A DNA stretch of 64,000 nt from assembly GCF_040436405.1 (NCBI RefSeq), contig NZ_AP031575.1, positions 2,498,501 through 2,562,500 on the forward strand, in the 5' to 3' direction. The translations under genes were made by a program, and so were the position numbers. The notes beneath the pieces are model-generated. The model did no database searches and had not been told where the DNA came from. It saw only the letters and a program-made list of their open reading frames with translations. This DNA is from Marinomonas sp. THO17. GTDB lineage: Bacteria > Pseudomonadota > Gammaproteobacteria > Pseudomonadales > Marinomonadaceae. Positions 1,525 through 38,699 of this stretch are shown here, one piece after another (the first letter of the stretch is position 1; each line of letters opens with the position of its first letter).

Positions 1525-1719
1525 TTAGTCATCCCAGCCGTTGGAAATATTATGATGTAAACGTTTTTGTTCCAAATGTTGCTCAATAGCACGTCGCGCT
1601 TTGAGCATGCGAGCGGCGTCTTCTTTTTGGTTGCGTTGCTTCTTCTCGTTATCCAAGCTGATGGAAGCGTGAAGAATATCGGTTTTTACTTCTGTTAGTG
1701 TTTCAGACAAATTGCTCAT
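1525..1719 (-). CDS. Small charged protein, possibly PA3496-like
   Basis: A 64-residue, highly charged, soluble protein with no signal peptide or membrane segment. The stretch ARRAIEQHLEQKRL (about residues 42-55) resembles the ARR-IE-LE-RRL pattern of the small PA3496-type proteins of pseudomonads, named in databases as putative envelope-integrity proteins; that match is from memory and weak. Most of the length is predicted helix, with regular charged residues that could form a coiled coil. It stands alone between aspC and the divergent uvrD. Its role is unknown. Confidence 0.6.
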   Translation of the reverse strand: MSNLSETLTEVKTDILHASISLDNEKKQRNQKEDAARMLKARRAIEQHLEQKRLHHNISNGWDD

Positions 1720-1909
1720 CCCAATCCCCCTCTTTTAGCCTTTCGATGTCTACAGATGTGCAATCAGCACTGTCATCGATCGTTGAAAAAAGTCAAAATA
1801 GACAGACAACTTACTTAATGAGTTATAAAAAACGTAAATCGATCAAAAATCAATCTGTTTTTACGTGTTTTTTATGACAAACCAATGAAATTAACCTTGG
1901 CGGACATCA

Positions 1910-4123
1910 ATGGACGTTTCTTTTATTCTTGATTCTCTAAATGATAAACAGCGCGAAGCGGTAGCGGCGCCACTACAAAACAGCTTGGTATTAGCTGGTG
2001 CAGGATCAGGGAAAACCCGCGTATTAGTACATCGTATTGCTTGGTTGATGCACGCTTATGAACTGTCACCATACAGCTTGATGGCAGTGACTTTTACCAA
2101 TAAAGCGGCTCGTGAGATGCAAGGGCGTATTGAAGAACTGGTTGGGGTGCCACCACAAGGTATGTGGGTCGGCACCTTTCACGGTTTAGCGCATCGCTTG
2201 TTGCGTGCCCATTGGCGTGACGCGGGCTTAAAAGAAAATTTTCAGATCATGGATTCTGACGATCAACTGCGTTTAATCAAACGTATTATGCGTGAGCTGA
2301 GCATAGATGATACTCGTTGGCCACCTAAGCAAGTGGCCTGGTTTATTAATGCGCAAAAAGACGAAGGTTGCCGAGCTGCGCATGTGCCAGACAGTCATGA
2401 TCCTTTTATGAAGGGCATGCGAGAACTCTACTATCACTATGAAGAAGCTTGTGAGCGTGGTGGCTTATTGGATTTTGGCGAGTTGCTGCTGCGTGCTCAT
2501 GAACTCATGCTGAGCACGCCGGCATTATTGCGTCATTACCAAGAGCGTTTTCGTCATGTGCTGGTGGACGAATTTCAAGATACCAATAGTATTCAATATG
2601 CTTGGTTAAGAGTTATGGTGGGGGATCAAGGCACCATCACCGCAGTGGGCGATGACGATCAGTCCATTTATGGGTGGCGTGGTGCAAAAATTGAAAACAT
2701 TCACAATTTCAGTAAACACTTTACCGATGTTCATACTATTCGTTTGGAGCAAAATTACCGTTCTACAGGACATATTTTGAATGCCGCTAATGGCTTGATT
2801 CAAAACAATGATGATCGTTTAGGCAAAGAGCTGTGGACTGACAGTGGTGAAGGCGAGCCGATTTCCATTTATGCAGGTTTTAACGAACAGGATGAAGCAC
2901 GTTTTATACTGGGAGTTATTAAAGAATGGCGTGACAAAGGCACTTCCCTGACAGATATGGCCATTTTATATCGTTCCAATGCCCAGTCACGTGTCATAGA
3001 GGAATGCTTGGTTAGGGAACAGATTGCTTATCGTATATATGGTGGACACAGATTCTACGATCGCTTGGAAATCAAAAATGCCTTAGCCTATGCGCGATTA
3101 GCCTTGGATCCTAACGATGATGGTGCCATGGAAAGGGTGGTTAATGTGCCACCACGTGGTATTGGTGAACGCAGTATTGGTACCTTACGCGAGATAGCAC
3201 GAGATCAAGGCTGCTCTATGTGGCAGGCGGCACAAGAGGTGGTACGACAATCTTTGATGCCAGCGCGTGCGACCAATGCCATCAAAACTTTCTTACACTT
3301 GGTAGAAGGTTTGATTACCACGGTTCAGCAGCTGGACTTGAATCTTAATGACATTTTTGAACAGATTATCGACGAAGCCGGTTTGATTCCTTTCCATGAA
3401 AAAGAAAAGGGTGAAAAAGGCGAAGCGCGTATTGAAAACTTGAAAGAGTTAATTGGCGCGGCGGGTGGCTTCAGTTGGAACGACGAAGACGAGGAATTTA
3501 GCTCACCTTTGATGGCCTTTTTGGATCAAGCGGTTTTGGATGCGGGTGATGCGCAAGCGGATGAATATCAAGATGCGGTGCAGTTGATGACCTTGCACTC
3601 CGCAAAAGGCTTGGAATTTCCTTTGGTGTTTCTGACTGGGGTGGAAGAAAATATTTTTCCGAGCAAAATGTCCTTTGAAGAGCCAGGGCGCTTAGAGGAA
3701 GAACGTCGTTTGTGTTATGTGGGCATCACCCGTGCCATGGAGAAACTGTACATCACCTACGCTGAATCCCGTCGATTGTTCGGTAGTGAATCCTTTAACA
3801 GTCCATCGCGCTTTATCAAAGAAATTCCCCAAGAATGTTTACAGGAAGTACGCTTGCGCTCGCAGATCAGCCGCCCTGTGTCATTACAGCGTCCCGATTT
3901 TCAAGCTGAAAAAGCTAAGCTGCAAAACAGCAGTGTGTTAAATCGCTATCAAGCACCTGAAGTAAACGTCAGCATGGGGGATAAGGTAAAGCATCCGGTA
4001 TTTGGCGAGGGCCTAGTGGTGAACTACGAGGGACAAGGGCCACAAGCGCGGGTTCAGGTTAACTTTGATGACGAAGGCACTAAGTGGTTGGTGTTGTCTT
4101 TTGCTAAGCTGGAAGTGCTGTAA
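1910..4123 (+). CDS. uvrD: DNA helicase II (UvrD)
   Basis: Superfamily 1A 3'-to-5' DNA helicase that unwinds nicked intermediates in nucleotide excision repair and methyl-directed mismatch repair. The 737-residue product nearly copies the E. coli UvrD opening (MDVSFILDSLNDKQREAVAA). It carries Walker A AGAGSGKT at residues 29-36, VDEFQDTN (motif II), GDDDQSIYGWRGA (motif III), LEQNYRS (motif IV) and TLHSAKGLEFPLVF (motif V). The C-terminus ends in the UvrD-specific tudor-like domain (GDKVKHPVFGEGLVV...), which separates it from Rep. I found no clear LexA box upstream. No gene is coupled to it. Confidence 0.97.
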   Translation: MDVSFILDSLNDKQREAVAAPLQNSLVLAGAGSGKTRVLVHRIAWLMHAYELSPYSLMAVTFTNKAAREMQGRIEELVGVPPQGMWVGTFHGLAHRLLRAHWRDAGLKENFQIMDSDDQLRLIKRIMRELSIDDTRWPPKQVAWFINAQKDEGCRAAHVPDSHDPFMKGMRELYYHYEEACERGGLLDFGELLLRAHELMLSTPALLRHYQERFRHVLVDEFQDTNSIQYAWLRVMVGDQGTITAVGDDDQSIYGWRGAKIENIHNFSKHFTDVHTIRLEQNYRSTGHILNAANGLIQNNDDRLGKELWTDSGEGEPISIYAGFNEQDEARFILGVIKEWRDKGTSLTDMAILYRSNAQSRVIEECLVREQIAYRIYGGHRFYDRLEIKNALAYARLALDPNDDGAMERVVNVPPRGIGERSIGTLREIARDQGCSMWQAAQEVVRQSLMPARATNAIKTFLHLVEGLITTVQQLDLNLNDIFEQIIDEAGLIPFHEKEKGEKGEARIENLKELIGAAGGFSWNDEDEEFSSPLMAFLDQAVLDAGDAQADEYQDAVQLMTLHSAKGLEFPLVFLTGVEENIFPSKMSFEEPGRLEEERRLCYVGITRAMEKLYITYAESRRLFGSESFNSPSRFIKEIPQECLQEVRLRSQISRPVSLQRPDFQAEKAKLQNSSVLNRYQAPEVNVSMGDKVKHPVFGEGLVVNYEGQGPQARVQVNFDDEGTKWLVLSFAKLEVL

Positions 4124-17070: not shown

Positions 17071-17102
17071 AATATTTGATTACAACCACTGAGGTTTATG
17101 TG

Positions 17103-18074
17103 ATGAAAAAACTAGTTGCAGGTCTAGCAGTAACAGTAGCGGCATTAGGCATTTCAGCTAACGCTGTTGCAGATGTTGATCCGAATTTGATGTCATACAG
17201 CAAAGCAAGTGGCGTTTCTGGCAACATTTCTAGTGTTGGTTCTGATACTTTAGCGAACTTGATGACATTATGGGCAGAAGACTTTAAGCGCCTTTATCCA
17301 AATGTAAACATCCAAATTCAAGCGGCTGGTTCTTCTACTGCGCCACCAGCTTTGACAGAAGGTACGTCTAACTTCGGTCCTATGTCTCGTAAAATGAAAG
17401 ACAAAGAAGTGGCAGCTTTTGAGAAAAAATACGGTTACAAGCCAACGGCAATTCCAGTAGCAATTGATGCTCTAGCAGTATTCGTTCACAAAGATAACCC
17501 TATTAAAGGTTTGTCTCTTCCACAAGTTGATGCGATTTTCTCTTCTACCCGTAAAGGTGGTCACAAAGAAGACATCACTACTTGGGGTAAAGCAGGTTTA
17601 ACTGGTGCTTGGGCGAATCGTGATATTCAATTGTTCGGACGTAACTCAGTATCAGGTACTTATGGTTACTTCAAATCACACGCTTTGTTTAAAGGTGACT
17701 ACAAAAACTCTGTAAACGAGCAACCTGGTTCTGCTTCTGTTGTACAGTCTGTTTCAACGTCACTTAATGGTATCGGTTACTCAGGTATTGGTTACAAAAC
17801 CTCTTCAGTGCGTGCGTTACCATTGGCGAAGAAAGAAGGCGATGCTTTCATTGCTGCTACCCCAGGAAACGCAGCAACGGGTAAATATCCACTGTCTCGC
17901 TTCCTATACGTTTACGTAAACAAAGCACCTAACAAGCCACTTGCTCCACTAGAGCGTGAGTTCGTTAAGATGGTACTTTCTAAGATGGGACAAGAAGTGG
18001 TTGTAAAAGACGGCTATGTTCCACTACCAGCAAAAGTGGCTGACAAGTACCTAAAAACGCTAGGTGTTAAATAA
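17103..18074 (+). CDS. pstS: Phosphate-binding protein PstS
   Basis: Periplasmic high-affinity phosphate receptor of the PstSCAB transporter, 323 residues. It has a Sec signal peptide ([21 protein letters not shown], cut before DVDPN), the phosphate-binding SSVGSDTL loop and [12 protein letters not shown]. It is the longer pseudomonad-type PstS with [12 protein letters not shown] in the first lobe. ATG 17103 is fixed by GAGG 8 nt upstream and the signal peptide. It heads the pstSCAB-phoU operon, behind a PhoB box; a hairpin after the gene probably lowers expression of the downstream genes relative to PstS. Confidence 0.95.
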
Positions 18075-18107
18075 GCAGTCGCTAAAGCGAGCTTATAAAA
18101 TGGTTTT

Positions 18108-18141
18108 AAAAGTAGGAGGGCAGAAACGCTCTCCTACTTTT
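18108..18141 (+). terminator. Hairpin between pstS and pstC
   Basis: Perfect 11-bp stem AAAAGTAGGAG / CTCCTACTTTT followed by a T-rich run. Probably a partial terminator or 3'-protecting hairpin giving more PstS than permease. Confidence 0.7.
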
Positions 18142-18155
18142 CTCTGTTTTATAGG

Positions 18156-18173
18156 TTGTCACAAAAACGTCAC
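18156..18173 (+). promoter_or_regulatory. Possible second Pho box before pstC
   Basis: TTGTCAC-AAAA-ACGTCAC has the 7-4-7 form. It ends only 14 bp before the pstC start, so a normal promoter would begin transcription inside the gene. Either a weak extra PhoB site or chance. Confidence 0.3.
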
Positions 18174-18187
18174 ACAAATAAAGATGA

Positions 18188-20452
18188 ATGCGGATGACTA
18201 AATCAACTGACCATCAGATGCCGGAGCTGGATTTCGATACGCCAGCATTAAAGCGTCATCGTAAAATTCGCGCCCTAAAAGACCGTATTGCCGGTATGGG
18301 CATCGCAGTAGGAGGCAGTAGCGTTATCCTAGCTGTACTGCTGATCTGCTTTTATTTACTTTATGAGGTTGCTCCTCTTTTCTCTGGAGCCAGCATTGAG
18401 CCACAAGCCAGTTACAGTTTACCAGCGGCGAATCAAGGCGAAAGCTTATACTTAACCACCGAAGAGCAAGCCGAAGTCGGCATGCGAGTGGCCAGCAACG
18501 GTAACATCATTTTCTTTTCTGTAGCTGACGGCAGCATTATTAAAACGGTGGAGAATACGCGTACCGAAAAAGTGACAGCGTTTGCGGTGGAATCCGATAC
18601 CAGTCATTTAGTGGCCTTTGGATATGAAGACGGTAAAGTTGTTATCGCTAAGCATGTTTACCGTACTACTTATCCTGATGGAAAACGTAAAATCACTCCT
18701 GATGTAGAATACCCTTACGGTGAAGAAGCCATTGCGGTGGCGGATTTTCCGATTGAGTTGATGTCATTTAGAGACGGTGAAGATGGCTTCACAGTGGCAG
18801 CGATGGGAGGTCAACAGACTGCGGTGACTAAGGTCACTAAGGAAGTCAACTTCATAACGGAAGAAGTGGAGTTAAGTGAAGAGCGCCAAAGTTTCCCATA
18901 TGTGGCGGATGTTGTCAGCTTATTGATCAGTGGTGATCAGCGCTACCTCTATGTAGCAACGCACTCTGGTGAATTAAGCGAGTTTGATTTACGTGATTTT
19001 AGCGACATTCGTTTGAAGGACGAAATCTCTTTGTTCAATGACGATGCCAAATTGGTGTCCATGAGTTATTTATTGGGTCAGTCGTCCATAATGGTGGCGG
19101 ATTCCACAGGTCGTGTAAGTCAATGGTTTAATGTACGTGATGATGCGACCAACGAAGAGAAACTGACCTTTATTCGTGATGTAAAACAGCCTGTCGGTTT
19201 GGTCGGCATGGCAATGGAGCATCGTCGCAAAGGTTTTGCGACCTTAGATGATCGTGGCATGGTGGCTATTTACAACGCTACTTCAGAGCGTCAGGTCATT
19301 GATGAGAAGTTGAGTGACAACACTGCTCGTATGATCAGCTTTGCTCCTCGTGCGAATGGTTTATTACTGGAAGACAGCGAAGGTCTGCATTTTTTCCATG
19401 TGGATAATGAGCACCCAGAGGTGTCGTGGTCATCTATCTGGGGCAAAGTTTGGTACGAAGGCTATCAAGAGCCGACTTACACTTGGCAGTCCTCCGCAGC
19501 CAATAACGATTTTGAACCTAAGTACAGTTTAATGCCATTGGCCTTTGGTACCATTAAAGCAGCTTTCTACGCTATGTTAATGGCTGTGCCGTTGGCTATT
19601 TGTGGCGCCATTTATACGGCTTACTTCATGGCACCTGGTTTGCGTCGTAAAGTCAAACCTGTGATCGAGCTCATGGAAGCCTTACCGACGGTTATTTTGG
19701 GTTTCTTGGCTGGCTTGTTCTTTGCTCCTTTCCTAGAAGAAAACCTAGCGGCAACCTTCAGTGTTTTGGTGGTACTGCCCGTTGGTATTTTATTGTTTGC
19801 CTACCTTTGGTCGCGTTTGCCGCAAAATATTCGTTGGTTGGTGCCTGACGGATGGCAGCCAGTACTGTTGATTCCTGTCATCGTGTTTTTGGCTTGGTTG
19901 TGCTTGGCATTGAGTCCAACCATTGAGTTGAACTTCTTTGATGGCAATATCCGCGGCTGGATTACTAATGATTTGGGCATCACCTTTGACCAACGTAATG
20001 CTTTGGTGGTCGGCTTTGCTATGGGTTTTGCGGTTATTCCGACCATCTTCTCTATTACGGAAGACGCTATTTTTAGTGTGCCGAAAGCGTTAACACAAGG
20101 CTCTTTAGCCTTGGGTGCGACTTACTGGCAAACTATGGTTCGTGTGGTGTTACCGACTGCTAGTCCAGGTATTTTCTCGGCAGTCATGATAGGCATGGGG
20201 CGTGCTGTGGGTGAAACCATGATTGTGTTAATGGCAACAGGTAACACGCCTATTATGGACATGAACATCTTTGAAGGCATGCGTACTTTGGCGGCCAACC
20301 TGGCGGTAGAAGTACCAGAATCAGAGGTGGGCAGTTCACACTATCGTATCCTCTTCTTGGCGGCGTTTGTGCTCTTTATTTTTACCTTTGTGGTAAACAC
20401 AGTCGCTGAAACCGTGCGTCAGCACCTACGTAAGAAATACGGGTCGCTATAA
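18188..20452 (+). CDS. pstC: Phosphate ABC transporter permease PstC, long form
   Basis: Inner-membrane permease of the phosphate importer, 754 residues against about 320 in E. coli. After one N-terminal helix (about residues 36-58) comes a roughly 380-residue extracytoplasmic region with repeated beta-rich segments (NIIFFSVADGSIIKTV, YLYVATHSGELSEFDL, MVADSTGRVSQWF) that look like WD/beta-propeller blades. The permease core follows, ending with the EAA-type loop [28 protein letters not shown] read in two parts. Long PstC forms are known in pseudomonads and vibrios. Its stop overlaps the pstA start (TAATG). Confidence 0.92.
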   Translation: MRMTKSTDHQMPELDFDTPALKRHRKIRALKDRIAGMGIAVGGSSVILAVLLICFYLLYEVAPLFSGASIEPQASYSLPAANQGESLYLTTEEQAEVGMRVASNGNIIFFSVADGSIIKTVENTRTEKVTAFAVESDTSHLVAFGYEDGKVVIAKHVYRTTYPDGKRKITPDVEYPYGEEAIAVADFPIELMSFRDGEDGFTVAAMGGQQTAVTKVTKEVNFITEEVELSEERQSFPYVADVVSLLISGDQRYLYVATHSGELSEFDLRDFSDIRLKDEISLFNDDAKLVSMSYLLGQSSIMVADSTGRVSQWFNVRDDATNEEKLTFIRDVKQPVGLVGMAMEHRRKGFATLDDRGMVAIYNATSERQVIDEKLSDNTARMISFAPRANGLLLEDSEGLHFFHVDNEHPEVSWSSIWGKVWYEGYQEPTYTWQSSAANNDFEPKYSLMPLAFGTIKAAFYAMLMAVPLAICGAIYTAYFMAPGLRRKVKPVIELMEALPTVILGFLAGLFFAPFLEENLAATFSVLVVLPVGILLFAYLWSRLPQNIRWLVPDGWQPVLLIPVIVFLAWLCLALSPTIELNFFDGNIRGWITNDLGITFDQRNALVVGFAMGFAVIPTIFSITEDAIFSVPKALTQGSLALGATYWQTMVRVVLPTASPGIFSAVMIGMGRAVGETMIVLMATGNTPIMDMNIFEGMRTLAANLAVEVPESEVGSSHYRILFLAAFVLFIFTFVVNTVAETVRQHLRKKYGSL

Positions 20453-22164
20453 TGAGTACTGATATGAAAATGAAGAAAAAGTCCGTATCTGAGTGGGTCA
20501 AATCTGGTGATCCTTGGGTATGGCTAAATGCCGGTGCGGTGGCAATTTCCGTCATCATGGTGATTGGCTTATTGTTGTTGATCGCTGTGCGTGGTTTGGG
20601 GCATTTTTGGCCAGCGGATGTCGTAGAAGCTCACTATGAGTTGCCAGGTCATCAGGGTTATAACATTGTCGCCGAGCGGGTGGAAAGTGTTGAAGTACCA
20701 GCCGCACAGTTACGTGAAGCTGGTATTGATATTCCTGACCATCATAAGTTAATGGAACGCACTCTCATGAAAACTGGTAACCGTGATGTTTACGGTTCGG
20801 ATTTCCGTTGGGTGATTGATGAGTACTTAACGGACGTGAAGCGCCCAGAGATGTTATTTACGGCGGAGCGTCACGAGTGGGGTAACTTATATGGTTTCTT
20901 AAAAGCCGTGAAACAAGAAGGCAAAGTGGTATCAGAAACCTCTGATCTGACGCCAACAGAATCCTCTTTGGCTACTTGGAATGCGTTTGAGCAAAGTATT
21001 GAGCGCGCTACGGCTATTTATGAAGACATTCATGAAATAGAGAAAACTGACATAGGTAAAATCAACTATGCCTTAGAGCGCATTCGTCTTGAACAACGTC
21101 GTTTGGAACTAGAAGGCAAGTTGACACCACAAGCCGTCGCGGATTTTGCCGCTGAACGTAGTCAGTACGATGAAGAATACAAACAATTGCAACAAGACTT
21201 GATAGAGCTGTACGCAAAAATCAATCGTGACACTTTTGTGGTGCAAGTGATGGATGGTTCAGAGCATGAATTACCTGTTGCTAAGATTGTGCGTGCCTAT
21301 CGTGCTAACGCTATGCATGTTGGGCAAAAAGTGGCTTTCTACTTCGCAAAATTATGGGAATTTCTCTCTGCTGAGCCTCGTGAAGCCAATACTGAAGGTG
21401 GTGTGTTCCCTGCGATTTTCGGAACCGTAATGATGGTTTTGTTGATGACTGTCTTGGTTACGCCGTTTGGTGTGGTTGCGGCCGTTTATCTACGTGAATA
21501 CGCCAAGCAAGGGGTATTAACACGTACCATTCGTATTGCAGTCAATAACTTAGCAGGTGTACCTTCCATTGTTTATGGTGTGTTTGGTTTAGGTTTCTTT
21601 ATTTACTTTTTAGGGTCAGGTATTGATCAGGCCTTTTTCCCAGAAGCTTTACCTGCTCCAACCTTCGGTACTGGTGGTTTAATGTGGGCTTCGATTACTT
21701 TGGCCTTATTGACCGTACCTGTGGTGATTGTGGCGACTGAAGAAGGTTTGTCACGTATTCCTCGTAATGTACGTGAAGGTAGTTTGGCATTAGGCGCAAC
21801 CAAAGCCGAAACCTTGTGGCGCGTGATATTGCCAATGGCGAGTCCAGCCATAATGACGGGAGTTATTCTGGCGGTTGCCAGAGCCGCCGGCGAAGTGGCG
21901 CCATTGATGCTGGTGGGTGTGGTGAAATTAGCGCCATCCTTACCTCTGGATGGAAATTATCCATACATTCACTTGGATCAGAAATTTATGCACCTAGGTT
22001 TCCATATCTATGATGTGGGTTTCCAAAGTCCAAACGTGGAAGCGGCACGTCCATTAGTGTACGCAACAGCTTTATTGTTGGTCGTGGTGATTGCTTTGCT
22101 GAACTTAGCAGCAGTGACCATTCGAAACCACCTACGTGAAAAATACAAATCGCTGGAAATGTAA
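20452..22164 (+). CDS. pstA: Phosphate ABC transporter permease PstA, long form
   Basis: Second permease subunit, 570 residues against about 296 in E. coli. The N-terminal helix (about 25-45) is followed by a 250-residue extracytoplasmic insert rich in charged helices and probable coiled coil ([38 protein letters not shown]). The canonical permease domain then carries the EAA loop ([19 protein letters not shown]). The insert parallels the one in PstC, suggesting the two extracytoplasmic parts meet. Translation is coupled to pstC by the TAATG overlap, and pstB starts 20 bp downstream. Confidence 0.93.
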
Positions 22165-22184
22165 GCGGCGGAGAAGAGATTATT

Positions 22185-23015
22185 ATGAGCGACGTAAAAA
22201 CACATTCAATTGATATTTCAGCGATGCAGCGCAGTCAACAGGCTTTGCGTATTGAAGACGAGACTGTTTGCCTCTCAGTGAAGGATTTGCACCTGTTTTA
22301 TGGTCAAAAAGAAGCGCTTAAAGGTATCGATATGGTGATACCTGAAAAAAAGGTTACCGCCTTTATCGGACCTTCTGGTTGTGGTAAATCCACACTTTTG
22401 CGTTGTTTTAACCGTATGAACGACTTGGTTGACTCTTGTCGCATAACAGGTCAAATCAACCTACACGACGAAAACATCTATGCCAAAGGGACTGACGTAG
22501 CGGAGTTGCGTCGCCGTGTGGGCATGGTATTCCAAAAGCCGAATCCATTTCCTAAAAGCATCTATGAAAACGTAGCTTATGGCTTGCGTATTCAAGGCAT
22601 TAATAAAAAGCGTGTCTTAGATGAAACAGTAGAGTGGGCATTACGTTCAGCGGCCTTGTGGGATGAAGTAAAAGACCGTCTGCACGAAAGTGCGTTAGGT
22701 ATGTCTGGTGGTCAACAACAACGTTTGGTTATCGCGCGAACCGTGGCGGTAAAACCAGAAGTGTTATTGTTGGATGAACCAGCATCAGCGTTGGACCCGA
22801 TTTCAACACTGAAAATTGAAGAATTGATTCACGAATTAAAAAATGATTTCACCATCGCCATCGTAACGCACAATATGCAGCAAGCAGCGCGTGTATCGGA
22901 TTACACCGCTTTTATGTACTTGGGTGATTTGATCGAGTTCGGTGACACTAATACCCTGTTTACTAACCCTGGTAAGCAACAAACGGAAGACTACATCACT
23001 GGACGCTACGGTTAG
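22185..23015 (+). CDS. pstB: Phosphate ABC transporter ATPase PstB
   Basis: Cytoplasmic ATPase of the phosphate importer, 276 residues. Walker [11 protein letters not shown]-loop [21 protein letters not shown], signature [18 protein letters not shown], Walker [14 protein letters not shown] and the switch histidine in [14 protein letters not shown] are all present. The N-terminal ~25 residues ([19 protein letters not shown]) are longer than in E. coli PstB. The start ATG follows GGAGAAGAG. It ends 14 bp before phoU, as in the standard operon. Confidence 0.96.
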
Positions 23016-23029
23016 GCGGAGGATTTATT

Positions 23030-23743
23030 ATGCAAGAATTAACGACAGATCATATTTCTCAGCAATTTAATAATGAGCTTGAACAGCTTCGTCAGCACTT
23101 TTTAACCATGGGTGGCGTGGTAGAAAAGCAAGTTCAAGATGCGGTTCAAGCACTATTGGATGCTAACGGCTCTTTAGCGGAAGACGTTAAAGATAAAGAC
23201 GCTACGGTCAATCAGTTGGATGGTCTGATTGACGAAGAATGTACGCGTATCTTGGCAAAACGACAGCCTGCGGCGTCGGATTTGCGTATGATTCTTTCCA
23301 TTAGTAAAGCGGTTAGCGAGTTGGAAAGAATGGGCGACGAGGCGAAAAAAATCGCTAACTTGGCCATGAATTTAATTTCTGAAGGTGAGGCGCCACGTGG
23401 CTATGTGGAAATAAATCGTATTGGCCAAATGGTGTCCCGTATGATTCACGATGCATTAGATGCCTACGCTCGTTTGGATATCGATACAGCGATTAAGGTG
23501 GCCAAACAAGATAGAACGGTAGACCAGGAATACAACACTGCTCTGCGCTCACTGGTGACTTATATGATGGAAGATCCTCGCAGTATCTCGCGAGTGATTA
23601 ATGTGATTTGGGTATTACGCTCTCTTGAGCGTATTGGTGATCATGCTCGTCATACTTGCCAGCACCTGATCTATATGGTTAAAGGTGTTGATGTACGTCA
23701 TGTGCACGTCAATGATTTGGCGGGTGAAGTCAAAGACGCCTAA
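23030..23743 (+). CDS. phoU: Phosphate signalling regulator PhoU
   Basis: A 237-residue all-helical cytoplasmic protein that links PstB to the PhoR kinase and keeps the Pho regulon off when phosphate is plentiful. It has two PhoU repeats, each with an acidic metal-binding pattern (ISKAVSELERMGDEAKKIAN and NVIWVLRSLERIGDHARHTC). Last gene of pstSCAB-phoU; a strong terminator follows 15 bp after the stop. Its signalling partner PhoR is encoded at 36.7-38.0 kb, away from this operon. Confidence 0.96.
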   Translation: MQELTTDHISQQFNNELEQLRQHFLTMGGVVEKQVQDAVQALLDANGSLAEDVKDKDATVNQLDGLIDEECTRILAKRQPAASDLRMILSISKAVSELERMGDEAKKIANLAMNLISEGEAPRGYVEINRIGQMVSRMIHDALDAYARLDIDTAIKVAKQDRTVDQEYNTALRSLVTYMMEDPRSISRVINVIWVLRSLERIGDHARHTCQHLIYMVKGVDVRHVHVNDLAGEVKDA

Positions 23744-23758
23744 GGTATTCATTTTATT

Positions 23759-23796
23759 AAAAAAGCTTCACAGTCTTGACTGTGAAGCTTTTTTTT
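23759..23796 (+). terminator. Terminator of the pst operon
   Basis: Stem GCTTCACAGTC / GACTGTGAAGC (11 bp, extended by A6/T6) with a 2-nt centre and eight T residues. Confidence 0.9.
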
Positions 23797-23877
23797 CGCT
23801 TATTAGGTTTTTTCTCTGTTGGCGAAAGGACGGATTTTGCTAACATGGATTTTTCTTTAATTCATGGCAGCATATTG

Positions 23878-24381
23878 ATGTTTACTCCAGACACTTCCTC
23901 TTATTCTCAATCGTCTGAAATCTATTATCAAAGCTTGAATGAACAGCTTAATGCTTTGTTCGCTGACGAGCGTGATCTTATTTGTAATGCGGCTCAGTTA
24001 TCTGCTTTTATCATGCAAACCATTGATGACTTAAATTGGGCCGGGCTTTATTTTGCTCGTGACAATGAGTTGGTCTTGGGGCCGTATGTGGGAAAGGTTG
24101 CTTGTACTCGAATTCCCTTTGGCCGTGGTGTATGTGGAACGGCAGCTCAGACCTTAGTTGTGCAGCGCATTGATAATGTTCATGATTTTTCTGGCCATAT
24201 TGCTTGTGATGCGGAATCGGCTTCTGAGTTGGTTATTCCTCTGGTCGTCGAGGGCAAGTTGGTTGGGGTGTTTGATATCGACAGTCCAGTTGAAAAGCGT
24301 TTTAGTGAACAAGATCAGGCAGGGATTCAAGCCATGTTGGATACCTTTGTATCGTCTTGTGATTGGCAATGGCAGTTTTAG
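23878..24381 (+). CDS. msrC: Free methionine-(R)-sulfoxide reductase
   Basis: GAF-fold enzyme (fRMsr, YebR/MsrC) that reduces free methionine-R-sulfoxide. The three family cysteines are present: Cys76 (GKVACTRIP), Cys86 (GRGVCGTAA) and the catalytic Cys110 (GHIACDAES), with INWAGLYF-like opening and PLVVEGKLVGVFDIDS. ATG 23878 is chosen because alignment with E. coli YebR begins at the following SSEIYYQSLNEQL; longer readings run into the pst terminator. The product is then 167 residues. No strong ribosome-binding site is visible. It converges on the Hpt gene with only 5 bp between stops and no terminator. Confidence 0.88.
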   Translation: MFTPDTSSYSQSSEIYYQSLNEQLNALFADERDLICNAAQLSAFIMQTIDDLNWAGLYFARDNELVLGPYVGKVACTRIPFGRGVCGTAAQTLVVQRIDNVHDFSGHIACDAESASELVIPLVVEGKLVGVFDIDSPVEKRFSEQDQAGIQAMLDTFVSSCDWQWQF

Positions 24382-24386
24382 CTCAT

Positions 24387-24728
24387 TCAACTCAGCATAG
24401 AAAAATAATCTGACAAGACCGCCAATGTTTCCTTGTGTAGTGTTGGCAGCAGTTCAATTGCAGCGGCGATGGGAGAGGCTTGCTCATTGGCTGATGCCGC
24501 TTCTATGATAGCGCATTGCTCCGCCAGCTGATTGGCTGCCATGTTTAAACTAGCGGACTTGAGGGAGTGGCTGACTTGTTTGAGCTGCTGATAATCCTGT
24601 TCTTGCCAAGCTGTTAGCAGGAGTTCCAACTTCTGTGAGCTGTCTTTGACAAACTCTAGTCGAATTTGATTGACGGTATTCTTTCCAAGTAGCTGGGTGA
24701 GAGAATCTAAATATGCTGTATCTATCAT
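24387..24728 (-). CDS. Stand-alone Hpt domain protein
   Basis: A 113-residue four-helix histidine phosphotransfer protein. The phosphorylatable histidine is His54 in QVSHSLKSASLNM, matching the AHxLKGxS family pattern, so it should be able to carry phosphate. It is the last gene of a three-gene leftward unit (periplasmic molybdopterin-fold protein, kinase-like protein, Hpt), 9 bp after the kinase-like gene. No receiver-output regulator lies next to it, so its donor and acceptor are probably encoded elsewhere. Confidence 0.85.
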   Translation of the reverse strand: MIDTAYLDSLTQLLGKNTVNQIRLEFVKDSSQKLELLLTAWQEQDYQQLKQVSHSLKSASLNMAANQLAEQCAIIEAASANEQASPIAAAIELLPTLHKETLAVLSDYFSMLS

Positions 24729-24737
24729 ATTGTCTTC

Positions 24738-26537
24738 CTATTGATTGCCTTCACCACTTCCTAAGTTATCAATAATTGGATCAAACTGCTCTTGGGTAAG
24801 AGGATAACTCAGTGGAAGATAAGCAAGTGACGATGAATTAATGACTTGAGTATAGTAGCAACAAAGTTGAGCGCCATTTCTTTTCCATTCTTCTAGGGCA
24901 CTTAGAAGATCGTCTGTGAAGGCGGCGGCATTGCCCAAAATAATCAAATCAAATGTCTCTTGCGGAAGTGGGGTTTCATCTTGATGCAGTTGCACGGACA
25001 GATTTTGGCTGGTCATCATAAGTTCCAGCACCCGTGATAAATTTTTATCTTGTTCTAGAATTAGCACTCGCTTACCAGTAGCTTGCTGCCGAGTGTTTTT
25101 AATCTGTTCAGTAGGGTTGCTGGAAACATAGAAGGGCAAATCCACCCAAAATTCACAACCTTGGTTCTCGGCACAGGAAAAATGCATTTCTCCCTTCATT
25201 AAATAAATAAGCTGGTGACTTAAGGTTAAATTGAGTCCTACTTGGTTCGCGTCTGGTGCCATTTGCGGCGTAGGTAAATTTGGATTGCGTCTCAAGTTCT
25301 GTTGTAAAGCTTGAGACATACCCACTCCAGTATCACGAATGGCCAATTGCATTACTTGAGTTTCATGAGTGCCGTCGGGTAGCAATAAAGTAGGAGCAGC
25401 CAGTGCCGAAGGACGTAATTGGATGCTGATGCTCCCAGATGGGCTGTGGGCAATGGCGTTTTGCATTAAGCCGAGTAGAATCACTTTAAAACGCTCAAAG
25501 TCCAAATGAATGTTATCGGGTAGTGCGGTATCAATATAAAGAATGCTGGCCAATTGTTTACGTGCCATTTGTGTCTCAATCAGGCTGAGGCAAGAACGCA
25601 TATGCTGCCGCAATGAACCTTCACTGATGTTAAGTTGCAGTTTTTTGGCTTCCACTAAGGTTAAATCGGTTAGCATTTCAATGGTGTGTAATAATTGGTG
25701 ACTGGATTCTTCAATGTGTTTGGTGAGCGCTTCCGATACTTCATTTGTTGATTGTCGTAAAGTTTTGACCGTTCCTAAAATGGTGTTAATGGGCGGGCGA
25801 ACTTCTTGACTGATAAAACTCAACATGTTCGCTTTATCATCATGGGCGGTTTGGATGTCCAGTTTTAGTTGTGTATTTCGACCGTTGGCAAAACGTAATT
25901 GTGAAAAGCTTTTTGCTATAAAAAAGCACAGGCACAGTAAGCATAAAAGTAGACTCACCGATAAGAATTGAATGTAGTAGAGTTTGTCTTGCAGTGCTTT
26001 ATGTTGGCTGGTAATGAATTTATTGCTGCCTGTGTTTACTAAGCTGACAAACTCACCTAATTGAGGATCCAGTTTCTCAATACGTGAAATCAAATTGGGC
26101 AAATAGCTTAAATCACCTTCTTCGACTCTACTAACATGAAAACTAAGTAGTTCTAATTCACCATTAATGATGTTCAGCAAGCGAGTAGTACGTCCTCCCT
26201 CAAACTCTCTTACCAAGTTGCCGACATCGCCATCACGAAGAAGATCGATGCGACTCATCAACAGACTGTATTCCGCAAAAATAGAATCACGAAATTGGCT
26301 TGGTCTAGCTTCAAGGCTAATCAGAAAATTGAGGAAGCGATAGGTTTGCACCTGTAATTGCAGAGCATTCCACAAAGAGCTTTCAAACACTCGACGACTG
26401 TTATCACGAGCACTGTCACTGGTATAAGTAATGATTCCGAACAGAGCAATGGTAATTAAGATGATGAGCAATATGAAACTATACAACATCCATTGTTTGA
26501 ACCGAGAAAGCCAATTTAACCCTTTTGATTTAGGCAC
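24738..26537 (-). CDS. Degenerate membrane hybrid histidine kinase (no H-box histidine)
   Basis: A 599-residue sensor-kinase-like protein: helix 17-38, a ~150-residue helical periplasmic domain, helix 188-208, a DHp region, an ATPase-like domain and a C-terminal receiver-like domain. Normal sites are altered. The H-box reads FISQEVRPP with Gln244 (codon 25806-25808) for the phosphoacceptor His. The N-box Asn360 and DTGVG (402-406) remain but the G2 box is GLNL. The receiver (from about 489) has EQD for the acidic pair, Gly535 for the phospho-Asp, and no switch lysine. So it probably signals by binding rather than phosphotransfer. It starts 5 bp after the upstream gene. Confidence 0.85.
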   Translation of the reverse strand: MPKSKGLNWLSRFKQWMLYSFILLIILITIALFGIITYTSDSARDNSRRVFESSLWNALQLQVQTYRFLNFLISLEARPSQFRDSIFAEYSLLMSRIDLLRDGDVGNLVREFEGGRTTRLLNIINGELELLSFHVSRVEEGDLSYLPNLISRIEKLDPQLGEFVSLVNTGSNKFITSQHKALQDKLYYIQFLSVSLLLCLLCLCFFIAKSFSQLRFANGRNTQLKLDIQTAHDDKANMLSFISQEVRPPINTILGTVKTLRQSTNEVSEALTKHIEESSHQLLHTIEMLTDLTLVEAKKLQLNISEGSLRQHMRSCLSLIETQMARKQLASILYIDTALPDNIHLDFERFKVILLGLMQNAIAHSPSGSISIQLRPSALAAPTLLLPDGTHETQVMQLAIRDTGVGMSQALQQNLRRNPNLPTPQMAPDANQVGLNLTLSHQLIYLMKGEMHFSCAENQGCEFWVDLPFYVSSNPTEQIKNTRQQATGKRVLILEQDKNLSRVLELMMTSQNLSVQLHQDETPLPQETFDLIILGNAAAFTDDLLSALEEWKRNGAQLCCYYTQVINSSSLAYLPLSYPLTQEQFDPIIDNLGSGEGNQ

Positions 26538-26542
26538 CAGCC

Positions 26543-27064
26543 TTACTCCGAACTAGGTACTATCTTAATGTGATTGATTTGCCAAATAGAGCGGCCAAAA
26601 TAGATTTCCGATTTGAGACTTTCATTTTGGTCAAAGGGGTAAATCAGCATAATAGGACCTAGATTACGAATACTCATTGGTACGCCGTCTCTGTGTGTTG
26701 CGAAAATGGCACCATGCTCGACAAAATCACTGACAGGGACTCTGGTCATGTATTTATTTAATGCGGTAACTTCCAAAACGTCACCGTTGGCATTAAGGGC
26801 GGCCAATAAATCGATCGCAGAGAAGCCTCGATAAGTATGGAGGCCTTTGGTCCAAGGGTTGTTTGTAGTGACAGAATATTGAGGTAAGGCTTCGAGCATG
26901 GGCAGATCAAATTTGACTTGAGAATCTTGCAACATATTGTCCATATCCCCAGATACGGTCAGAATGACGCGTTGAGTAGGCATGTCGAGAGCCATAGTGA
27001 ATGAAGAAAGGCAGCCAAATAAAACGATAAACAAACGAGAGGCTGATTTCATACATGACTTCAT
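26543..27064 (-). CDS. Secreted molybdopterin-oxidoreductase-fold protein lacking the metal cysteine
   Basis: A 173-residue protein with a Sec signal peptide (cut near TMALDM). The mature part resembles the sulfite-oxidase-type molybdopterin-binding fold (COG3915-like): TYRGFSAIDLLAALNANGD, then FATHRDGVPMSIRNLGPIMLIYP. The only cysteines are in the signal peptide (residues 4 and 18), so the cysteine that ligates molybdenum in this fold is missing and enzyme activity is unlikely. It is first in the unit with the degenerate kinase and Hpt, suggesting a periplasmic sensing partner. The start ATG follows AAGGA by 6 nt. Assignment rests on motif resemblance. Confidence 0.7.
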   Translation of the reverse strand: MKSCMKSASRLFIVLFGCLSSFTMALDMPTQRVILTVSGDMDNMLQDSQVKFDLPMLEALPQYSVTTNNPWTKGLHTYRGFSAIDLLAALNANGDVLEVTALNKYMTRVPVSDFVEHGAIFATHRDGVPMSIRNLGPIMLIYPFDQNESLKSEIYFGRSIWQINHIKIVPSSE

Positions 27065-36666: not shown

Positions 36667-37992
36667 CTATTCCACCTTTGATGACATTATGCTGTCAATA
36701 GCGTCTTTACGTACTCGATTGGCCGGGAAATGACAGGAAAAAGTACTGCCTGAACCGGGTAAACTGCGGATTTGTAATTTGGCATCATGATGTATTAATA
36801 CGTGCTTTACTATCGCCAGTCCTAAGCCCGTGCCTCCAGTTTTTGAGCCGCGACCTTTATCAACACGGAAAAAACGTTCGGTTAGACGTGGAATGTGCCG
36901 TGGGTCGATTCCTAAGCCCTGATCTTTTACTGAAAAAATACCATTGAGCTCACTGGATTCCCATTTGATTTCAATTTCACCGCCGTCTGGCGAGTATTTG
37001 ACGGCATTTACGATCAGGTTTGAAAAAGCGCTATACAACTCTTTATAAGAACCGTAAATACGTGCATCGTCAGCAATTCGGGTTGTCAGCTTGTGCTGTT
37101 CTGACAAAATAGGAGTCGTGGTTTTGACAATAGAATCAATAATCTCGCCCACTTTATACCACTGATTTTCTTCGCGTTTGTCATCACTTTCTAGACGCGA
37201 CAAAAGCAGTAAGTCTTCGATCAGCTGTTCCATGCGTTCGGATTGTTCCGCCATATTTACTATGCCTTTCTGCATATTTTGGGGCAGGGTATCCTTGAAC
37301 ATATCCAGGGTTTCCACATAACCTTTTATTACCGTTAGAGGGGTTTTGAGTTCATGTGAAGCGTTGGCAACAAAGTCTTTACGCATCTGCTCTAACAAGT
37401 GTAGACGTGTGATATCACGAACAAAAATAAGGTGATCGTTTTTATCGTAAAGGGTGGTTTGGATTTCCAGATATACACCATCTTTTGCCGGGGATTTGAT
37501 TACCAAGGGTTCGCCGAAACGTTTTTGCGTAAAGTATCGGAAAAACTCGGGACTGCGCACTATGTTGGTAATGACTTGGCCACGATCAACCGGTCGCATG
37601 AGACCTAGAAAATGCGCTGCTGAGTTATTCCACCACTCTAAATTGCCTTGGTTGTCCGCCATGATAACGCCCTCTTTCAAGGCGCTGGTGGAGCTTTCAA
37701 TACGCGTTAACGCTTGGCGCATACGGCGTTTGGATTTGCGTTGCTTCTTTTGTAAACGATATACGGCATCGAACACTTCGCCCCAAATACCGTTGGATTC
37801 TGGTGGCGCGGCACGACCAGAGTGACGTAACCAGTTATGAAATTGATACAGCTGGTACATTTGCCAGTATAAAGTGCCCAATGTATAGAGCAGCAAAACA
37901 CCTAAAAAATGGCCTAATATATATCCGATTACCGCGCAGGCAATGAAGCCTGCCAACCAAGAAATAATGGTGTTTCGCCAGATGGTTTTCAT
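36667..37992 (-). CDS. phoR: Phosphate regulon sensor kinase PhoR
   Basis: Membrane histidine kinase that phosphorylates PhoB under phosphate limitation, 441 residues: two N-terminal helices with almost no periplasmic loop (about 8-45), a cytoplasmic PAS domain (about 95-200, SALKEGVIMADNQGNLEWWN), H-box His213 in FVANASHELKTPLTVIKGYVETLD, and an ATPase domain (SNLIVNAVKYSPDGG, VKDQGLGID, GGTGLGLAIVKHV). It overlaps phoB by 4 bp. Its signals come through PstB and PhoU, encoded at 22-24 kb. Confidence 0.96.
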   Translation of the reverse strand: MKTIWRNTIISWLAGFIACAVIGYILGHFLGVLLLYTLGTLYWQMYQLYQFHNWLRHSGRAAPPESNGIWGEVFDAVYRLQKKQRKSKRRMRQALTRIESSTSALKEGVIMADNQGNLEWWNNSAAHFLGLMRPVDRGQVITNIVRSPEFFRYFTQKRFGEPLVIKSPAKDGVYLEIQTTLYDKNDHLIFVRDITRLHLLEQMRKDFVANASHELKTPLTVIKGYVETLDMFKDTLPQNMQKGIVNMAEQSERMEQLIEDLLLLSRLESDDKREENQWYKVGEIIDSIVKTTTPILSEQHKLTTRIADDARIYGSYKELYSAFSNLIVNAVKYSPDGGEIEIKWESSELNGIFSVKDQGLGIDPRHIPRLTERFFRVDKGRGSKTGGTGLGLAIVKHVLIHHDAKLQIRSLPGSGSTFSCHFPANRVRKDAIDSIMSSKVE

Positions 37993-38699
37993 GCCGACCT
38001 TTTTGCTGAGAAGCGGTAGCCAGTGCCCCGCACGGTTTGAATCAAGAAGTCATGGGTATTGCCAATGGCTTTACGCAAACGACGTATGTGTACATCGACA
38101 GTGCGCTCCTCCACGTAGACATTCCCCCCCCAGACTTGATCCAATAATTGCGCCCTTGAATAAGCGCGTTCTTGATGAGTCATTAGGAACTTCAGCAAAC
38201 GGTATTCTGTCGGCCCCATGTCCAATGGACGAGCTCCAATAGTGACTCGTTGACTGATTGGATCAAGTGTTAGACCTTCTACTTCAATGGGTTCATCAAT
38301 GCCCTGTGGTGTAGCGCGACGTAATACCGCTTTCAATCGAGCAACTAATTCACGAGGTGAAAAAGGTTTGGTGATGTAATCGTCCGCACCCACTTCTAAA
38401 CCTTGAATTTTGTTGTCTTCTTCACTTTTTGCGGTCAGCATAATGACAGGTATTTCCGCTGTCGTGCTGTCTTTTTTGATACGTCGTGTCAATTCAATGC
38501 CACTGCCGCCAGGCATCATCCAGTCAACCAAAATCAAATCGGGTCTATGGTCCACTATGATTTCATGGGCTTGCTGAATGTTTTCTGCTTCCATGTACTC
38601 GTATCCTGCCATTTCTAGGGCAATGGCAATCATCTCGCGTATGGAAGACTCATCATCAATAATTAGTACTTTCTTACCGGTCACAGGATTCACCCTCAT
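37989..38699 (-). CDS. phoB: Phosphate regulon response regulator PhoB
   Basis: OmpR-family DNA-binding response regulator, 236 residues: receiver with Asp59 (LILVDWMMPGGSG) and Lys in ADDYITKPFSPREL, and a winged-helix domain (MGPTEYRLLKFLMTHQERAYSRAQLLDQVWG, read in two parts, and ERTVDVHIRRLRKAIG). Activates pst and other phosphate-starvation genes. A Pho box matching that of pstS lies just upstream, so the phoBR operon should be autoregulated. Confidence 0.97.
   Translation of the reverse strand: MRVNPVTGKKVLIIDDESSIREMIAIALEMAGYEYMEAENIQQAHEIIVDHRPDLILVDWMMPGGSGIELTRRIKKDSTTAEIPVIMLTAKSEEDNKIQGLEVGADDYITKPFSPRELVARLKAVLRRATPQGIDEPIEVEGLTLDPISQRVTIGARPLDMGPTEYRLLKFLMTHQERAYSRAQLLDQVWGGNVYVEERTVDVHIRRLRKAIGNTHDFLIQTVRGTGYRFSAKRSA

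Follow-up and report, generated by a model that had tools for sequence, protein, structure and literature searches.

Why should a bacterium keep an operon whose histidine kinase has no phosphoacceptor histidine and whose separate Hpt protein has an intact one? The question is raised by a cassette of three genes in a 64,000-nucleotide stretch, here called the window, of the genome of Marinomonas sp. THO17, which consists of one 3.92 Mb contig. The original prediction, made from the letters of the window, described three contiguous leftward genes, separated by 5 and 9 bp and encoding a secreted protein, a membrane hybrid kinase and an Hpt protein; the coordinates are confirmed, and its descriptions of a mature secreted protein without cysteine, of Gln244 and Gly535 in the kinase and of an intact His54 in the Hpt are all correct. 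We report here that the cassette is real, under selection and genus-wide, that it appears to be one of two clear PruR systems in the genome, and that its kinase probably turned into a pseudokinase at an early stage in the history of the genus. The explanation that we favor, with a probability of about 0.56, is that it is a PruR-DTB-derived pseudokinase operon supplying, and perhaps gating, the Hpt of an active paralogous system (P2), the evidence for Hpt supply to P2 being correlative.

Results

Loss of the kinase histidine

The genus sample comprises 48 genomes (G numbers) with an orthologous kinase, which was found at the cassette locus in 48 of the 48 genus genomes searched; 23 loci (L numbers) were reached through the gene for the secreted PruR-type protein and 25 through the kinase. 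The counts of 48 include the kinase of G039, added late (27% identity, expectation value E=6.9e-58); the genome of G058 is 77% complete. A PruR gene lies immediately upstream of the kinase at 45 of the 48 loci, and because 23 of them were found through the PruR gene itself, the unbiased measure of linkage is 22 of 25, among the loci reached via the kinase. At the loci of G016, G022 and G039 neither PruR nor Hpt accompanies the kinase.

The cassette kinase matches the Pfam models HisKA (E=9.5e-8) and HATPase_c (E=1e-9), with Gln244 within a recognisable H-box, and two hydrophobic stretches, identified by eye, flank its periplasmic domain. Position 244 is glutamine in 34 of the 48 orthologues, histidine in five (G055, G016, G022, G039 and G019), asparagine in four, serine in two, alanine in two and lysine in one. 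A tree was built from 47 kinases, G028 (from another family) and the paralogue P2 serving as an outgroup in which both members have the histidine; in it G055 branches first and G016/G022 second, and the remaining 44 form one clade that is without histidine except for G019; a quick tree joins G039 to G016/G022. Histidine is ancestral at this position because the outgroup kinases and the basal lineages carry it, and a single early loss suffices, two changes (one loss and one return) being enough for the whole tree. The original prediction had counted relatives with His244 as evidence against it, and five were found, but four of these are basal and only G019 is a probable later return from glutamine. 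The G019 kinase (L107, 5753-7681, minus strand) has CAT at codon 244 and is placed well inside the Gln clade at the end of a long branch, a position to be read with the tree tool's caution about long branches that meet; its genome has no cassette Hpt and no match to PruR2, the PruR protein of P2.

Within the Gln clade of 35 genomes, Gln244 is present in 34, and the N-box Asn360, the G1 Asp402 and Trp56 are each present in all 35; conservation equal to that of Gln244 is seen in 74 of the 599 alignment columns, its own column counted. The ratio of nonsynonymous to synonymous substitution rates (dN/dS) is 0.055-0.120 for the nine measurable of 12 close pairs, where the kinase frames were taken from stop to stop and hence include a few upstream codons, and where some dS values are near saturation. 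A full-length frame is present in 48 of 48 genomes. Decay is disfavored because of the low dN/dS together with the near-fixed Gln244 and the invariant ATP-site residues, in agreement with the selection proposed in the original prediction. A sequencing error at codon 25806-25808, which was entertained as an alternative, is ruled out by the occurrence of Gln in 34 of 48 genomes. The pattern points to a maintained pseudokinase under selection, reflecting neither decay nor a read error.

In another clade of nine genomes the H-box is altered further (to N, S, A or K), and Asn360 is lost in seven of them. Across the genus 46 of the 48 cassette kinases are without the histidine or the G1 aspartate, both being present only in G055 and G019. 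Almost throughout the genus the kinase thus seems to have lost its autokinase activity, in more than one way, while the protein itself has been retained. We also observe what amounts to the reverse kind of kinase loss in G016, G022 and G039 (L105, L106 and L171), where the histidine is kept, the G1 aspartate is changed (RAAG), and PruR and Hpt are absent.

The receiver-like C-terminus and the periplasmic motif

Pfam finds no receiver in the C-terminus of the cassette kinase. A profile of 47 orthologous C-termini can nevertheless be aligned with the profile of the P2 receiver (probability 90%, E=1.5e-6), with Gly535 approximately at the place of the phospho-aspartate; both AlphaFold models (predicted local distance difference test scores 45.3 and 51.1, from alignments of three sequences) were poor and were set aside, the kinase model having a strand that ends just before residue 535 at low confidence. 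Aspartate is found at position 535 in none of the 48 orthologues and is absent at the aligned place in the outgroup G028, so that the loss is old and can be neither dated nor placed in the lineage of the window.

The periplasmic motif WX7E is said to be conserved in systems partnered with PruR (PMC13259868). The cassette kinase has WX7Q instead (W56 and Q64; window 26346-26372, codons 56-64). The glutamate is retained in the P2 kinases read, in G028 and in L133, a pair elsewhere in the order, and a pattern scan of nine loci outside the genus gave WX7E in the kinases L133 and L109, WX7Q in L130, a GGDEF partner from another family, and neither in the rest. The change from WX7E to WX7Q is older than the loss of the histidine because it is also present in kinases that keep His244. 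As the phosphoacceptor histidine and the WX7E glutamate are both missing, the sensor is best regarded as DTB-derived and is not classed as a DTB kinase.

The presumably secreted PruR-type protein

The only cysteines of the 173-residue protein, which is presumably secreted, are residues 4 and 18, both inside the N-terminal hydrophobic stretch. Its score against the Pfam molybdopterin oxidoreductase model PF00174 is 19.6 bits, below the cut-off of 24, and with the molybdenum-ligand cysteine absent it does not qualify for that enzyme class. A genus profile matches the solved structures 7kos/7kou (E=2.1e-51) and 7rkb (E=2e-48), each a Pterin Binding Protein, and 7kp2 (E=3.5e-34), a Putative Pterin Binding Protein; a single-sequence search with the window protein gives 7rkb at E=2e-27. 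PruR is described as a periplasmic, SUOX-like protein of about 170 residues without the critical cysteine, which binds reduced pterins with the involvement of Tyr104 and Trp160 and whose gene lies directly upstream of DcpA, an enzyme of cyclic di-GMP (c-di-GMP), or of a sensor kinase named DTB, and PruR-linked DTB kinases are said to be widespread (PMC13259868, a 2026 review). Tyr105 and Trp161, which are equated with Tyr104 and Trp160 of the A. tumefaciens numbering through the structure-profile alignment and the residue names in that review, are conserved in all 45 orthologues. To the extent that sequence can show it, this protein (PruR1) is a member of the PruR family and a predicted pterin binder. 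Its gene has dN/dS values of 0.032-0.247 in 11 close pairs.

The mature part contains no cysteine in any of the 45 orthologues. A lineage-specific cysteine loss is ruled out, because the absence is a family trait of PruR and is shared by the paralogue adjoining a canonical kinase, and it appears to be the normal state of a binding protein, with no active site lost from this gene. The original prediction of three lost active sites must therefore be reduced: the missing cysteine is a family trait, the receiver aspartate is absent throughout and unplaceable, and the change of His244 to Gln is the one that can be placed.

A class-wide PruR profile has matches in 10 of 369 genomes at E<=1e-8, that of the window counted, with flanks too short for judging Hpt linkage outside the genus. 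The window genome also contains a third, distant PruR-like gene (C1:1467963-1468421; L050:1480-3138; 25% identity, E=0.016) with a mature part free of cysteine and a GGDEF protein directly after it; the sensor domain of this GGDEF protein aligned with neither kinase, and the gene was not tied to the PruR systems.

The cassette Hpt

The cassette Hpt scores 40 bits against PF01627 (cut-off 24.6). Of the eight Hpt matches in the window genome it is the only one in a short frame (116 residues), the others lying in frames of 381-1492 residues. An orthologue (E<=3.4e-28) is present in 38 of the 48 genus genomes, with the histidine intact in all 38 and as a separate frame at all 38 loci, and dN/dS is 0.058-0.261 in 10 close pairs. 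Relocation of the gene in the 10 genomes without a copy at the locus is ruled out by a profile search of all 48, in which the next match after the orthologues has E=3.1e-18. Other short Hpt frames (114-137 residues, weak matches) occur in some relatives including G001 and G007, and none is listed for the window genome. In the 13 kb of the G028 locus (L109) there is no separate Hpt gene beside the PruR-kinase pair, but the second gene upstream encodes a 761-residue kinase that matches Hpt. Of the features whose sharing the original prediction set out to have checked, Gln244, the missing Asp535, the missing cysteine and the linkage of PruR with the kinase extend through the genus at the frequencies given above; Gln is not universal, and Hpt is missing from 10 genomes.

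The second PruR system and its association with the cassette Hpt

P2 encodes PruR2 (gene at C1:236093; 35% identity to PruR1, E=4.9e-29), a hybrid kinase and a response regulator with receiver and HD-GYP domains. The P2 kinase has 804 residues, the H-box SHEIRTP and one Pfam receiver with LVLMDIRMP, and no Hpt is found in it by Pfam. Thirty-eight PruR2 or PruR-like loci of the genus were gathered and the C-termini of their kinases read, an Hpt being called from the motif H-[SN]-[IML]-K-G. Such a motif is present in the P2 of nine genomes of the non-Gln clade and in that of G016 and G039; the one of these compared with Pfam, from G041, reached 20.1 bits where the cut-off is 24.6, and the genus Hpt profile recovers only two of the nine. 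In 22 genomes examined, P2 has a receiver and no usable Hpt; these include G010, whose degenerate Hpt remnant is counted as Hpt-less. A P2 segment first taken for a degenerate receiver was rejected as such, there being no receiver match (probability 0.2%). The P2 kinases of G011, G016 and G039 are split into two frames, the P2 receiver is gone in G008, and the P2 kinase is gone in G022, G005 and G012. No PruR2 match was found in G001, G002, G007, G019, G046, G049, G051, G052, G055 and G058, where absence of P2 means a single PruR match, the P2 kinase itself not having been searched for. No match to the P2 regulator above 51% identity was found in 13 genomes without the P2 kinase.

The association tests cover 47 genomes and leave out G039, which groups with G016/G022 and adds no loss event. 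The cassette Hpt is present in 22 of the 22 examined genomes with an Hpt-less P2, and an Hpt-less P2 is found in none of the 10 genomes without the cassette Hpt. Fisher's exact test gives p=0.0016 with G006 also counted as Hpt-less (it is among the 23 of the test and outside the 22 examined, its P2 kinase being cut by a contig end), p=0.00012 in the Gln clade, and p=0.0015 when G058 and G006 are omitted. A loss-only reconstruction yields six Hpt losses. Five of them fall in the 28% of the tree length in which no P2 bears a receiver (p=0.0075), and the remaining one (G016/G022, with G039) coincides with a P2 that either carries an Hpt itself or no longer has a kinase. As G016 and G039 show, a genome whose P2 possesses an Hpt motif can be without the cassette Hpt. 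For a control hybrid kinase, L007, three of the six losses fall in the part of the tree without it (p=0.94 by length), and four of 21 carriers have no cassette Hpt (Fisher p=1.0), partial matches in G005 and G012 not being counted as carriers. The proposal in the original prediction that the Hpt belongs to another relay is plausible, and the P2 hybrid kinase is the best candidate found. As a separate observation, G008 (L142, P2 kinase at 1709-3829) has lost the P2 receiver and has no cassette Hpt, its relay apparently being shortened to a simple kinase.

Features of the locus

The coordinates of the main features are given in Table 1. The cassette is flanked on one side by what we take to be a pst/phoU block together with the GAF-domain gene, presumably fRMsr-like, and on the other by an apparent oligopeptide-type transporter block; the flanking neighbors are common to many of the orthologous loci. 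The window also contains a PhoR-PhoB pair (36667-38699), at a distance of about 10 kb from the cassette and of 13 kb from the pst genes (17076-23743); the oligopeptide-type transport block lies in the interval.

Table 1. Positions of the cassette genes, a neighbor and the candidate partners of the Hpt. Plain ranges are window positions.
Feature	Position	Strand	Remarks
PruR-type gene, predicted pterin-binding protein	26543..27064	minus	173 aa; profile match to solved structures
DTB-type membrane sensor, putative pseudo-histidine kinase	24738..26537	minus	GTG start; Pfam HisKA and HATPase_c
Codon 244 of the cassette kinase	25806..25808	minus	CAA (Gln) replacing the phosphoacceptor His; from sequence
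Separate Hpt protein gene	24387..24728	minus	113 aa, His54 intact; PF01627
GAF-domain gene, convergent, outside the cassette	23776..24381	plus	GAF domains; Hpt-side neighbor in many relatives, by neighbor comparison
P2: PruR2, hybrid kinase, receiver-HD-GYP response regulator	C1:236093-240085 (L051:4043-8086)		
L003, hybrid kinase without Hpt, second candidate donor	C1:3428204-3430045		614 aa

Discussion

The distribution of the cassette Hpt suggests how the two PruR systems may work together. Reduced pterin would be read in the periplasm by PruR1 and PruR2, as expected from what is known of PruR, and the window genome contains a match to the reductase model PRK06483 (328.8 bits, cut-off 249), which we take to be a dihydromonapterin reductase of the FolM/PruA type. 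The co-occurrence points to a route in which the cassette Hpt would take phosphate from the P2 receiver and hand it to a regulator, of which the HD-GYP protein is the likeliest, and pterin sensing may thereby be linked to c-di-GMP. Pterin-loaded PruR1 might conceivably reshape the pseudokinase such that Hpt is held or freed, or such that mixed dimers form with P2, setting the flow of phosphate. Taken to its full extent, the proposal makes the dead paralogue a ligand-gated dock for Hpt, in which PruR1 and its pterin switch between holding and releasing Hpt, or form the mixed dimer with P2, and so meter the flow from P2 to an HD-GYP c-di-GMP phosphodiesterase; the active kinase would have given up its own Hpt domain and would now rely on the operon of its dead paralogue, the two forming one circuit. 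We put this complete version forward tentatively and think it unlikely to hold in every part.

Several observations weigh against the assignment of the Hpt to P2. The link is a correlation, noticed on inspection and based on six loss events, with tests that were chosen after the pattern had been seen and are uncorrected, and an independent-pairs test was underpowered and gave no decision. When the trait is defined as an Hpt-less P2, all six losses fall in the part of the tree without it, with p=0.087 by length and 0.005 by branch number. Every one of the 17 genomes carrying the Hpt-less hybrid kinase L003 likewise has the cassette Hpt (Fisher p=0.017), and all six Hpt losses fall in the part of the tree without L003 (p=0.16 by length, 0.023 by branches). 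The cassette Hpt is present without the P2 kinase in six genomes (G005, G012, G046, G052, G055 and G058), and it is also retained throughout the non-Gln clade, in all nine genomes of which P2 shows an Hpt motif. In five others (G001, G002, G007, G049 and G051) the Gln kinase persists although Hpt and PruR2 are both absent, so the pseudokinase must have some use apart from both. The presence of WX7Q rather than WX7E in 48 of 48 cassette kinases (the tryptophan in 48 of 48) means that coupling to PruR may differ. Finally, three genomes that have the P2 kinase (G016, G043 and G059) are without the HD-GYP regulator, and because this weakens the output step our confidence in the best explanation is slightly lowered.

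The behavior of L003 bears on a different account, in which several Hpt-less hybrid kinases of the cell share the Hpt as a general hub and the position of the Hpt gene in the operon does no more than couple the amount of Hpt to pterin sensing. The genome does encode other hybrid kinases in which Pfam finds no Hpt (L003 and L007), and the co-occurrence of L003 with the cassette Hpt is complete, but L007 is unassociated, and a hub is not forced upon the system given that embedded Hpt domains of other kinases can act in trans, for which SypF provides a precedent (PMC12369376); we consider a hub possible, although on balance unlikely. The invariance of Asn360 and Asp402 throughout the Gln clade, in which the histidine is gone from 34 of 35 kinases, would also suit a role for the ATP-binding domain in phosphorylating the histidine of a partner kinase such as P2 in mixed dimers, with the Hpt merely carried along. 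The laboratory-evolved pseudokinase ChrS does heterodimerise with its paralogue HrrS (PMC9491836). However, Gln244, Asn360 and Asp402 are also kept in nine genomes without P2 (G001, G002, G005, G007, G012, G046, G049, G051 and G052), and the ATP-site asparagine is lost in seven of the nine members of the clade in which P2 has its own Hpt motif, and we regard a trans-acting ATP domain as doubtful.

Intact ATP-site residues could also be explained if the Gln-clade kinase were active through another phosphoacceptor residue, but the receiver-like domain is without its aspartate in 48 of 48 orthologues, which leaves no acceptor in the same chain, and glutamine is not known to be a phosphoacceptor in this chemistry; continued autokinase activity of this kind is scarcely credible. 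A slowly eroding relic, with a dead kinase and an Hpt in the course of being lost (absent in 10 of 48 genomes), would account for the scrambled H-box and lost asparagine of the one clade and for the absence of the PruR and Hpt genes and of the G1 aspartate in G016, G022 and G039. This is at odds with the low dN/dS of the kinase, its full-length frames in every genome and the persistence of Gln244 across deep divergence, and the selection data already make a relic very improbable. Supply of Hpt to P2 remains the explanation that we prefer, at the probability stated at the outset.

The cassette resembles several described systems and departs from each. As in the PruR-DcpA and PruR-DTB systems, the gene for a cysteine-less PruR directly precedes that for a membrane sensor containing HisKA and HATPase domains and several systems occur per genome, whereas the cassette kinase is without the histidine and the receiver aspartate, has WX7Q in 48 of 48 cases and has a separate Hpt gene attached (PMC13259868). 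The available portions of that review, the only relevant match among those listed for PruR and DTB, describe neither a DTB protein without the histidine nor an attached Hpt; we make no claim that these are unknown, and our search for literature joining Marinomonas, pterin and histidine kinases found none. A Caulobacter hybrid kinase without the conserved histidine is mentioned elsewhere (PMC11481889). DivL, which acts with CckA and ChpT (PMC12471899), and ChrS, with HrrS (PMC9491836), are also kinase-like proteins without kinase function that steer or join an active kinase, but the cassette pseudokinase, known here from its sequence, is natural, genus-wide and tied to PruR and Hpt. Borrowing by an Hpt-less hybrid kinase of an Hpt encoded elsewhere has parallels in ChpT, the SypF Hpt and LuxU (PMC12471899, PMC12369376). 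The difference is that the lender proposed here is the operon of the borrower's own dead paralogue. RcsD carries its Hpt in the same chain, whereas the cassette Hpt has its own gene and the pair is therefore not of the RcsD type. The likeness to the RcsC-RcsD-RcsB phosphorelay lies in a kinase-inactive membrane protein and an Hpt placed between a hybrid kinase and a regulator (PMC12471899).

The genus offers a natural series of kinase states, with an intact histidine (G055), a fixed glutamine with the ATP site kept, a scrambled site, a histidine with a broken ATP site (G016, G022 and G039) and a probable return to histidine (G019), and the series is combined with variation in whether an Hpt is present in trans. 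The accessible part of PMC13259868 contains no worked-out output for a kinase-type PruR partner. Marinomonas may thus be a setting in which two ideas can be tested, namely that a sensor kinase can come to regulate its own paralogue and that a phosphorelay can be divided between two operons.

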